Origin: Lysobacterales bacterium PRO7
GTDB taxonomy: Bacteria > Pseudomonadota > Gammaproteobacteria > Xanthomonadales > Rhodanobacteraceae
Assembly (NCBI GenBank): GCA_021404785.1
Contig: QWHH01000006.1
Span: 96,202-160,201, forward strand
Direction: 5' to 3'
DNA: 64,000 bases
Shown: positions 61,260 to 64,000 of the stretch, in pieces
How the letters are laid out: each line of letters starts with the position of its first letter
How positions within the stretch are numbered: the stretch's first letter is position 1
Notes under the pieces: model-generated
Seen by the model: only the letters and a program-made list of their open reading frames with translations
Told to the model about the DNA's origin: nothing
Database searches by the model: none
Position numbers and translations under genes: made by a program

Positions 61260-62720
61260 TCAGCCCGCAAGCCCGAATGCGCGATAGCACCAGCCGATCA
61301 GCGGACCCCACATCACGCCGAGCACGAGCAAGGCGACGCCGTTGATCGACAGCACCCAGCGCAGCGGCAAATCCTGCGGCAACGCGAGCGCGGACTTGTC
61401 CGCCGGCGCATCGAAGTACATCACCTTGACCACGCGCAGGTAGTAGAAACAGCCGACGATGGCCATGATGATGGCGATGATCGCCAGCCACAGGAAGCCG
61501 GCATCGATCGCGGACTTGAGCACGAGCAGCTTGGCGAAGAATCCCCACAGCGGCGGCACGCCGGCCAGCGAGAACATCGCCAGCAACATCATGAATGCGT
61601 ACCACGGGCTGCGCTGGTTCAAGCCCTTGAAGTCGTCGATCATCTCGGCCTCGAAACCGGCGCGCGCGAGCAACAGGATCACGCCGAACGCGGCGGTGGT
61701 CATGATCGCGTAGCAGATTGCGTAGAACATCGCCGCCGCGTAACCCGCCGGCGTCGCGTTGAGCAGGCCGAGCAGCAAAAAGCCCATGTGCGAGATCGTC
61801 GAATACGCGAGCATGCGCTTGATGTTGGTCTGCGCGATCGCGACCACGTTGCCGATGATAAGCGACAGCGCCGCCAGCGCGGCCAGCATCTGGCTCCAGT
61901 GCGGCGCGAGCGTGCCGAGACCGCTGTCGAGCAGGCGATAGGCCATGCCGAACGCGGCGAGCTTGGGCGCGGATCCGATGAAGATCGTCACGGCGGTCGG
62001 CGATCCCTCATAGACATCCGGCAGCCACATGTGGAATGGCGCGGCACCGAACTTGAACGCAATGCCGACAACCACGAACACGAGACCGAATGCGAACAGG
62101 GTCGGATGTTGTGCGATTCCGTTCACGCCCACGCCACCGACCTGGCGGATCTGCGCCAGATCCAGCGTGCCGGTGGCGCCGTAAATCATCGACAGTCCGT
62201 ACAACAACAGGCCCGACGCCAGCGCGCCGAGCACGAAGTACTTCATGGCAGCTTCGGAGGCCACGCCGGAATCACGGTGAATGGCGACCAGTGCATAGCT
62301 CGACAACGCGAACAGTTCCAGCCCGAGGTACACCATCACCAGATTGCCTGCCGACACCAACAGCATCATGCCGAGCGTGGAGAAGAGTGTGAGCGTGTAG
62401 AACTCACCGATGAACAGCTTGCGGTCCGCAAGATAGCGGCGCGAGAAAACGAAAACCACGGCGACGATGCCGAGGATGAAGATCTTGAGCACCACGGCGA
62501 TGGAGTCGTGGATGTATGCGCCATTGAACGCCGTTGCCGCCGGACCGTGATCGGCGAGGATCAGCGCCATGGCCCCAAGCAACGCGATGATGGACAGCCA
62601 GTGCGTGACCGCGCGCTGTGCCGGTTTCAGGAACAAGTCGATGAAAAGAATCGCGCAGGTCGCGCCGAGCAGAAAGTCTTCCGGCGCGAGCAAGGCGAGG
62701 TCGTGGAGGTTGAAGTTCAT
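61260..62720 (-). CDS. nuoN: NADH-quinone oxidoreductase subunit N
   Basis: 486 residues with about 14 membrane helices. It is one of three antiporter-like proton-pumping subunits of complex I. Typical blocks are FFAKLLVLKSAIDAG, LAYSTISHMGFLLLGL and KFGAAPFHMWLPDVYEGSP, which carries the key Lys. The start MNFNLHDLALLAPE is standard. NuoM should lie just upstream, but an A+T-rich RHS region is there instead. No nuoM remnant is visible in 62721-62827. Confidence 0.95.
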   Translation of the reverse strand: MNFNLHDLALLAPEDFLLGATCAILFIDLFLKPAQRAVTHWLSIIALLGAMALILADHGPAATAFNGAYIHDSIAVVLKIFILGIVAVVFVFSRRYLADRKLFIGEFYTLTLFSTLGMMLLVSAGNLVMVYLGLELFALSSYALVAIHRDSGVASEAAMKYFVLGALASGLLLYGLSMIYGATGTLDLAQIRQVGGVGVNGIAQHPTLFAFGLVFVVVGIAFKFGAAPFHMWLPDVYEGSPTAVTIFIGSAPKLAAFGMAYRLLDSGLGTLAPHWSQMLAALAALSLIIGNVVAIAQTNIKRMLAYSTISHMGFLLLGLLNATPAGYAAAMFYAICYAIMTTAAFGVILLLARAGFEAEMIDDFKGLNQRSPWYAFMMLLAMFSLAGVPPLWGFFAKLLVLKSAIDAGFLWLAIIAIIMAIVGCFYYLRVVKVMYFDAPADKSALALPQDLPLRWVLSINGVALLVLGVMWGPLIGWCYRAFGLAG

Positions 62721-62827: not shown

Positions 62828-63313
62828 CTAAGGATTATGAAGCTTTACTTCATTTGCGCGCTTTAAAACTGCGGAAATTCTCTTCATAACAATCTCCTCA
62901 GGTTCTAATAAAAGCTTTCGTTTCCACAAATGATTTTCTCCACCGATCCACAACAACATTGAAGAACTATGTGCTCGGCCATAAAGAATCAATGGTTCCG
63001 CATTATCAAACGGCGTTAGGGAAAAATGAATACTCCCGTTATTTAACGAAATGGATTTAATGCAATATGCTTCGGCAGTCTCATTTGGTGAATACTCGAC
63101 CGTCAAAATTCCCTGACCATGCCCATCAATCTCCAAACGTACAAATTCCGTATTCGCCTCGGTCCCTCCCAACCACGCCCCAACCAAATCAGTTAGCTTG
63201 GGTTCGTCAATTACAGCCATACTCGATGCCAATCCATGAGTATTGCATAGCACGAATGACACCAAAATCAAAAGCAATGCCTTGATCACACTTATTGAGT
63301 GGTTGGCGCACAT
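62828..63313 (-). CDS. Small exported protein, candidate immunity protein of the RHS toxin
   Basis: 161 residues from the ATG at 63313, 8 bases after the RHS stop. A hydrophobic signal (VIKALLLILVSFVLC) is followed by a mature part rich in beta residues with two Trp-containing blocks (VGAWLGGTEAN, LLWIGGENHLWKRK). The gene is A+T-rich like the RHS tip and unlike nuoN. No family recognised. A gene right after an RHS tip usually encodes immunity; export to the periplasm would fit a toxin that acts there. No Shine-Dalgarno is clear, so coupling to the RHS gene is likely. Confidence 0.65.
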   Translation of the reverse strand: MCANHSISVIKALLLILVSFVLCNTHGLASSMAVIDEPKLTDLVGAWLGGTEANTEFVRLEIDGHGQGILTVEYSPNETAEAYCIKSISLNNGSIHFSLTPFDNAEPLILYGRAHSSSMLLWIGGENHLWKRKLLLEPEEIVMKRISAVLKRANEVKLHNP

Positions 63314-63321
63314 GTTAGTTT

Positions 63322-64000
63322 CTAATTTACCGGGCCGCAGAGATGAAATCTGCAAGCGCGCTCCATTCTATTGGGTTCATCGTTTGGGTCCTCGGGATTT
63401 CTTGGATCCTTATGAGGAATTCCCATCTGATGCAACAATTCATGATAGATGACGTCTGCTAGGCAATGGCAAATCGGATTGTTAAAAGCTGCGTTATCAA
63501 CTCTAGATGAATGAACCCATGGCGCTATAGTGTCACCGCACGTCGTGCTCGTTGGATGAAGCGAATGGATAGTTCCAACAAAATTAAAAGTTCCTGTCGC
63601 CAACACTGCATCGAGTCTTTTTTTGAAATTGTGCAGCTTAGAGCTCATGCAACATCCATTATCACGTTCCAATTCCTTACGAATACGGTCTTCGGCTTTT
63701 TCTACTTTTTTCCAGTTGTTATTACTGAATCCATATCCGCGCCGCAATAATCCGTATGGGTCATTATCGTTTGTTGGATTACCCTCTACATAAGCATACG
63801 TACTAATCCCACCTTGCAGTCCAACCGGATCACTCTCTATGTACTGCCCGCTATCTTTGTCATAGTCGCGAAAGCCGTTATGAATCAGCCCCGTCTCCGA
63901 ATCGTAGTATTGCCCCATGAAACGCAGATTAAACGTCAACGTGCCAGTCGGCGCGTTTTCACCAAAGGCGCTGTTGTTGGCGAAGTAATCCCACTTCCAG
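63322..64000 (-). CDS. RHS repeat-associated core protein with metzincin-like toxin tip (partial)
   Basis: The last 225 residues of an RHS protein; the 5' part is outside the window. The RHS core end is clear: NLRFMGQYYDSETGLIHNGFRDYD, ESDPVGLQGGISTYAYV (each in two parts) and the cleavage-site motif P-x4-DPYGL. After it comes a ~140-residue variable tip with HELLHQMGIPH (63412-63444), the full HExxHxxGxxH zinc motif of metzincin proteases, and later a Met in NRMERACRF that could be the Met-turn. Seven Cys residues suggest disulfides. A+T-rich tip. Probably a secreted polymorphic toxin; target unknown. Confidence 0.82.
   Translation of the reverse strand, partial: WKWDYFANNSAFGENAPTGTLTFNLRFMGQYYDSETGLIHNGFRDYDKDSGQYIESDPVGLQGGISTYAYVEGNPTNDNDPYGLLRRGYGFSNNNWKKVEKAEDRIRKELERDNGCCMSSKLHNFKKRLDAVLATGTFNFVGTIHSLHPTSTTCGDTIAPWVHSSRVDNAAFNNPICHCLADVIYHELLHQMGIPHKDPRNPEDPNDEPNRMERACRFHLCGPVN

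Follow-up and report, generated by a model that had tools for sequence, protein, structure and literature searches.

The 64,000-nucleotide stretch of Lysobacterales bacterium PRO7 analysed here (contig QWHH01000006.1, positions 96,202 to 160,201 of the forward strand; hereafter the window) ends in the 3' part of an RHS gene, the C-terminal tip of which bears a zinc-peptidase motif and is followed at once by a gene for a small, exported-looking protein, P0002. The tip belongs to a family with members in other bacteria, some of which likewise sit behind an RHS core. We consider it likely that the gene encodes an RHS toxin that is exported, carries a zinc peptidase tip stabilised by disulphides and is countered in the periplasm by the product of the neighbouring gene. 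All window features described below lie on the minus strand.

The RHS frame occupies 63322..63999 (225 codons) and remains open where the window, and with it the contig (C18), ends. Its residues 10-84 match the RHS-associated core domain (TIGR03696; 63748..63972, E 9.1e-22), at the end of which stands DPYGL (63748-63762), and the last 142 residues (63322..63750) constitute the tip, a cysteine-rich, putative zinc metallopeptidase toxin domain. The order is thus that of RHS-type proteins, i.e. an RHS core, DPYGL and then a variable tip with a drop in GC content, which is 0.492 in the core part, 0.438 in the tip and 0.422 in the P0002 gene, as against 0.624 in the window as a whole. An earlier note on this DNA, which described tip and partner as equally A+T-rich, was correct in this respect, and also in placing after DPYGL the string HELLHQMGIPH (63412..63444, tip residues 103-113), a match to HExxHxxGxxH. 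This is the sole match to that longer motif in the six frames of the window, where plain HExxH occurs 11 times. A CxC pair, C94 and C96 (63463..63471), precedes it.

Eight relatives of the tip were found, giving nine sequences that all share CxC[LF]-x5-HExxH. Single-sequence searches with the tip itself recovered no relative among 234 genomes of the family (14 other matches at E 0.008-0.09, at loci without the tip), among 399 genomes of the order (three others were read and judged to be chance) or in plasmids and genome_contigs, and viral scans gave chance matches only; plasmids and phages likewise gave nothing that matches the tip of L080. Scanning the DNA pattern CxC[LF]-x5-HExxHxxG over genome_contigs (84,980 species according to the tool description) yielded 35 loci, seven of which were judged on reading to be true relatives: L065 and L090 from Bacterium HR15, L074 from Vandammella animalimorsus, L080 from a member of Casimicrobiaceae, L087 from a gammaproteobacterium, L089 from Methylovulum and L092 from a member of Nitrospinota. 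L087 is partly masked by a run of N before the motif, and only its last 55 residues entered the alignments. The eighth, L107, comes from a genome of the same order as the window and was added by profile search; profile searches of 299 and of 369 genomes each matched four others, one of them true in each case (G324 in the former; G717, the same frame as L087, in the latter). The nine sequences are linked by pairwise BLASTP, with E-values that are flattering given the tiny search space. HExxH and the CxC pair are kept in all eight relatives, so that chance does not account for the motif core.

In five of the nine cases (the window, L074, L080, L107 and L092) the domain stands directly behind an RHS core. 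The core scores above the TIGR03696 cut-off in the first four of these, while that of L092 was found by tblastn (E 2.5e-5) and is preceded by RHS repeats. A 25-residue fragment of an RHS core lies just before the masked stretch of L087, and L089 is a short orphan frame, RHS similarity being absent from its 8 kb. Two other RHS tips with HExxH that we came across, L032 and L042, represent a different family (LAHEVxHS, NPFEVDAR).

The neighbouring gene, for a putative immunity protein of 161 residues (P0002, 62828..63313), begins with an ATG at 63313, 8 bases past the stop codon of the tip, exactly the spacing given in the earlier note. The description of its product as a small exported protein is also supported by a signal-peptide-like N-terminus under a hydropathy rule that flags P0002 among five of the 41 open reading frames of the window. 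A neighbour with a signal-peptide- or lipobox-like start recurs in five of the eight readable loci: in the window, L074 (two in tandem), L080, L089 and L107. The neighbour of L087 has multiple transmembrane segments (one of the eight), and L092 has no room for a neighbouring gene. The neighbours of L065 and L090, of 149-160 residues, are related to each other (BLASTP E 5e-17), and a further frame with a similar leader adjoins that of L065. The earlier note had named a wide spread of homologues of the small gene apart from any RHS tip as a sign against a toxin-immunity pair; such homologues exist, but they are weak ones and come from just two of 249 other genomes (L101 and L102), which is not widespread. 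These relatives share LxGxWxG and RLExD with P0002 and have signal-like starts, that of L102 scoring 2.38, just under the cut-off of 2.4. Two further candidates, L103 and L104, were taken as chance matches. L101 itself sits in a run of small genes (L105 in G157, about 8-19 kb) spaced by repeats with TTRSRRTA-like translations, an arrangement like the cassette array of a chromosomal integron.

All rows of the nine-row alignment have C94, C96, H103, E104 and H107 (window numbering), and all rows of a six-row one also have C33, C133 and C138. C133 lies in a predicted C-terminal helix (residues 125-137; NRMERACRFHLC, 63337..63372) and C138 follows it. Both AlphaFold2 models made of tips place HExxH on a helix. 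Glycine follows the second histidine at +3 in eight of the nine sequences, and the residue at +6, which would be the third zinc ligand of a metzincin, is His in three, Asp in two, Glu in two, Gly in one and Met in one. An alternative third ligand in the window may be D124 (63379..63381, a reading by eye), which sits 9 residues before a cysteine, as does, again by eye, the Asp of DYVY in L074. The Glu of an xExxC pattern was tried for the same role and dropped, its spacing being variable.

These observations bear on the class of the putative peptidase, for which the earlier note held that the motif defines a metzincin and that NRMERAC is a candidate Met-turn. Neither claim is supported as stated. 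The window tip does satisfy HExxHxxGxxH; however, the third His is kept in three of nine sequences, and NRMERAC, although present (63352-63372), places M129 in the predicted helix 125-137 rather than in a turn, with a methionine that is not conserved and in a block of the model with a pLDDT (per-residue model confidence) of only 56. The closest solved folds for both AlphaFold2 models are, moreover, zinc peptidases of the M35 (aspzincin) family, and a family missing from such a list of folds is not thereby argued against. A divergent M35 aspzincin, with the same scaffold and a third ligand drifting between Asp, His and Glu, has to be weighed, and we give it close to an even chance. HExxH, as found in M35, is present in the window tip, whereas the GTxDxxYG motif with its Asp ligand (known to us from excerpts of PMC7215534) is absent, with a partial likeness, by eye, only in L080 and L074. 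The window tip gives no hit to Pfam PF14521, and the best relative reaches 20.2 bits, under the cut-off of 30. An assignment to M35 by sequence, based on an N-terminal spacing of Cys, Gln and Ile-Ala that looked convincing by eye, failed when tested with a hidden Markov model (HMM) of six M35 proteins, which did not lift the tips above shuffles that keep the motif; a comparison with an M35 profile aligned the motif only. A 227-residue frame encountered elsewhere (L119, in G269) matches Aspzincin_M35 (E 4.6e-12) and also lacks the usual GTxDxxYG.

The sequence evidence is mixed and, if anything, leans to metzincins. HExxHxxG is present in eight of the nine sequences, and the +6 position holds His, Asp or Glu in seven of the nine, the highest count among 19 offsets. 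Astacin is the top solved-structure match of the nine-row profile, although a weak one (E 0.09), and reaches E 0.11 with a seven-row profile, for which an HNH nuclease comes first (E 0.018, in another region). A set of three metzincins surpasses M35 in profile comparison (95.5% over 47 columns vs 43%) and against the tip HMM (16.7-28.2 vs 2.4-9.5 bits), both figures being biased in its favour since its members came from our own motif or profile searches. Given the variable third His and the helical, non-conserved Met, a true, astacin-like metzincin toxin, with H113 completing the zinc site and with a Met-turn, seems unlikely to us, if not markedly so. The window tip has nothing above cut-off in Pfam-A or NCBIfam, astacin being its sub-threshold match there (E 0.03-0.09), and its frame does not match the Tox-MPTase or M91 profiles of Pfam and NCBIfam, libraries that presumably include models of both, at E up to 1. 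NCBIfam returned no match at E 0.1 for the tips of five relatives, nor did PHROGs for the window tip, L080, L074 or P0002, and a comparison of the window tip with PDB sequences returned one chain only, a surface lipoprotein, at E 1.5. A text search found no co-mention of aspzincin with rhs in the paper library used, and the papers co-mentioning rhs and metzincin were, by their titles and the beginnings of their abstracts, not about RHS toxins.

Several observations weigh against an RHS toxin paired with a periplasmic immunity protein. The domain of L092 is internal, with 246 residues after it, and those of L065 and L090 lack an adjoining RHS core, RHS-repeat similarity appearing some kb upstream; the neighbours of these two loci (two of the eight readable ones) have no evident signal. 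Among the neighbours counted as exported-looking, that of L080 misses the cut-off for the absence of a later transmembrane segment (1.66 vs 1.6) and that of L089 depends on an assumed GTG start. The neighbours of these five loci are mutually unrelated (BLASTP at E 0.01, first 25 residues removed), as would be expected for immunity genes, yet this gives no positive link. Around L101 and L102, tblastn with core and repeat sequences of RHS proteins as queries shows no RHS similarity in 19.9 kb each, a search that does detect the RHS genes of L107, L080, L074 and L092. As for the fold, none of the Foldseek matches reached E 0.001, and the window model has a pLDDT of 70.3 overall and of 56-66 in blocks from residue 111 to 140; finally, more than one residue is a candidate for the third zinc ligand. 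The occurrence of P0002 relatives without RHS nearby and the internal domain of L092 would also suit a housekeeping or processing protease that is no toxin and has a neighbour other than an immunity protein. We regard this as improbable, as the position of the tip behind DPYGL, the strong break in base composition and the recurrent but differing exported-looking neighbours fit toxin-immunity cassettes. The RHS effector and immunity pair proposed in the earlier note is hence supported in part: a zinc-peptidase-like domain recurs at the end of RHS proteins, and the product of the next gene looks exported in five of the eight readable loci, but the metzincin class is not supported as stated.

The genomic setting of the pair points to the operon for respiratory complex I. 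The next gene downstream is nuoN (61260..62720; NCBIfam NuoN, 680.2 bits, cut-off 523), the order on the window side being the end of the RHS gene, P0002, 107 bases and nuoN. At the end of another contig of the assembly (C19; L125, 31-36 kb), nuoM is followed after 21 bases by an RHS frame that the contig end cuts off after 1254 codons and that has a signal-like start, DUF6531 and nine RHS-repeat stretches. As the assembly has only one RHS core, it is simplest to assume a single RHS gene with nuoM on one side and nuoN on the other. The frame on C19 is thus probably the 5' part of the window gene, its pieces lying on separate contigs, and we infer that the two ends form a single gene; the RHS toxin-immunity module thus seems to interrupt the operon between these two nuo genes. 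The position at a contig end and the sharp change in GC content might alternatively suggest an assembly artefact that joined an RHS end to nuoN. This is very improbable in our view, as C19 ends in nuoM and then an RHS 5' part that is cut by the break, so that the two ends agree.

The signal-like start on C19, paralleled by eye in the complete RHS gene of L107, also suggests a route of delivery. TssC (PF05943), the one component of the type VI secretion system (T6SS) searched for, was not found at E 0.001 in this genome, listed as 99.5% complete, which makes delivery by a T6SS unlikely. The RHS protein would instead be exported by its own N-terminal signal peptide, and the tip freed after the DPYGL site. 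In an oxidising compartment the tip would fold with cysteine pairs locking the active-site helix to the one at the C-terminus, bind zinc, and cleave proteins in the envelope or periplasm of siblings or rivals. An RHS protein passing through the producer's own periplasm would give a reason for an exported immunity protein, and P0002 would go to that compartment and block the tip there. Going further, one may picture a new family of cysteine-locked RHS zincin toxins in which the scaffold is aspzincin-like, the HExxHxxG helix is like that of metzincins and the third ligand drifts between His, Asp and Glu. Such toxins would be exported by their own signal peptides rather than by a T6SS and neutralised in the periplasm by immunity proteins unrelated to one another, P0002 possibly being a GxW beta-barrel (a likeness seen by eye) that plugs the zinc cleft; we offer this tentatively, as possible rather than probable.

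What is new here is a family of putative RHS-tip metallopeptidases unnamed in the profile libraries searched, with an exported-looking neighbour in most readable loci. It speaks for a periplasmic action of some RHS toxins in species that lack a T6SS. Should the third ligand indeed change among the relatives, nature would have provided in them a test of how zinc sites are rewired while the toxin remains useful, and a module seemingly inside the nuo operon would tie a toxin-immunity pair to the genes of complex I.

Metallopeptidase tips of RHS proteins and periplasmic metallopeptidase-immunity pairs as such are already published. Zincin-like metallopeptidases at the tips of RHS and other polymorphic toxins were catalogued in 2012 as Tox-MPTase1-5, HopH1 and PVC-metallopeptidase, according to excerpts of PMC3482391; unlike these, the window tip has no Pfam-A match above cut-off, and its invariant CxC is absent from the motif lists in those excerpts. 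The M35 aspzincins (deuterolysin, GfMEP, AsaP1) are the best fold match of both models, but the tip lacks GTxDxxYG. The Salmonella Dublin PAAR-RHS protein with an M91 domain resembles it as an RHS protein with a C-terminal HExxH metallopeptidase and, encoded beside it, a small membrane protein as candidate immunity protein, yet has PAAR, a T6SS and the M91 domain (excerpts of PMC8867033). A further analogue is the C-terminal metallopeptidase of VgrG2b with PA0261 (Tpe-Tpi family) of Pseudomonas aeruginosa, where, in the excerpts of PMC6899460, an HExxH domain likewise ends a delivery protein and the adjacent gene encodes a periplasmic immunity protein. That metallopeptidase, shown in 2019 to form a pair with its immunity protein, is toxic in the periplasm and neutralised there, a precedent for the mode of action proposed here. 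VgrG2b is, however, a T6SS-delivered VgrG spike with thermolysin-like structural neighbours (same excerpts), whereas the window encodes an RHS protein, probably exported by a signal peptide, in a genome where no TssC was found.
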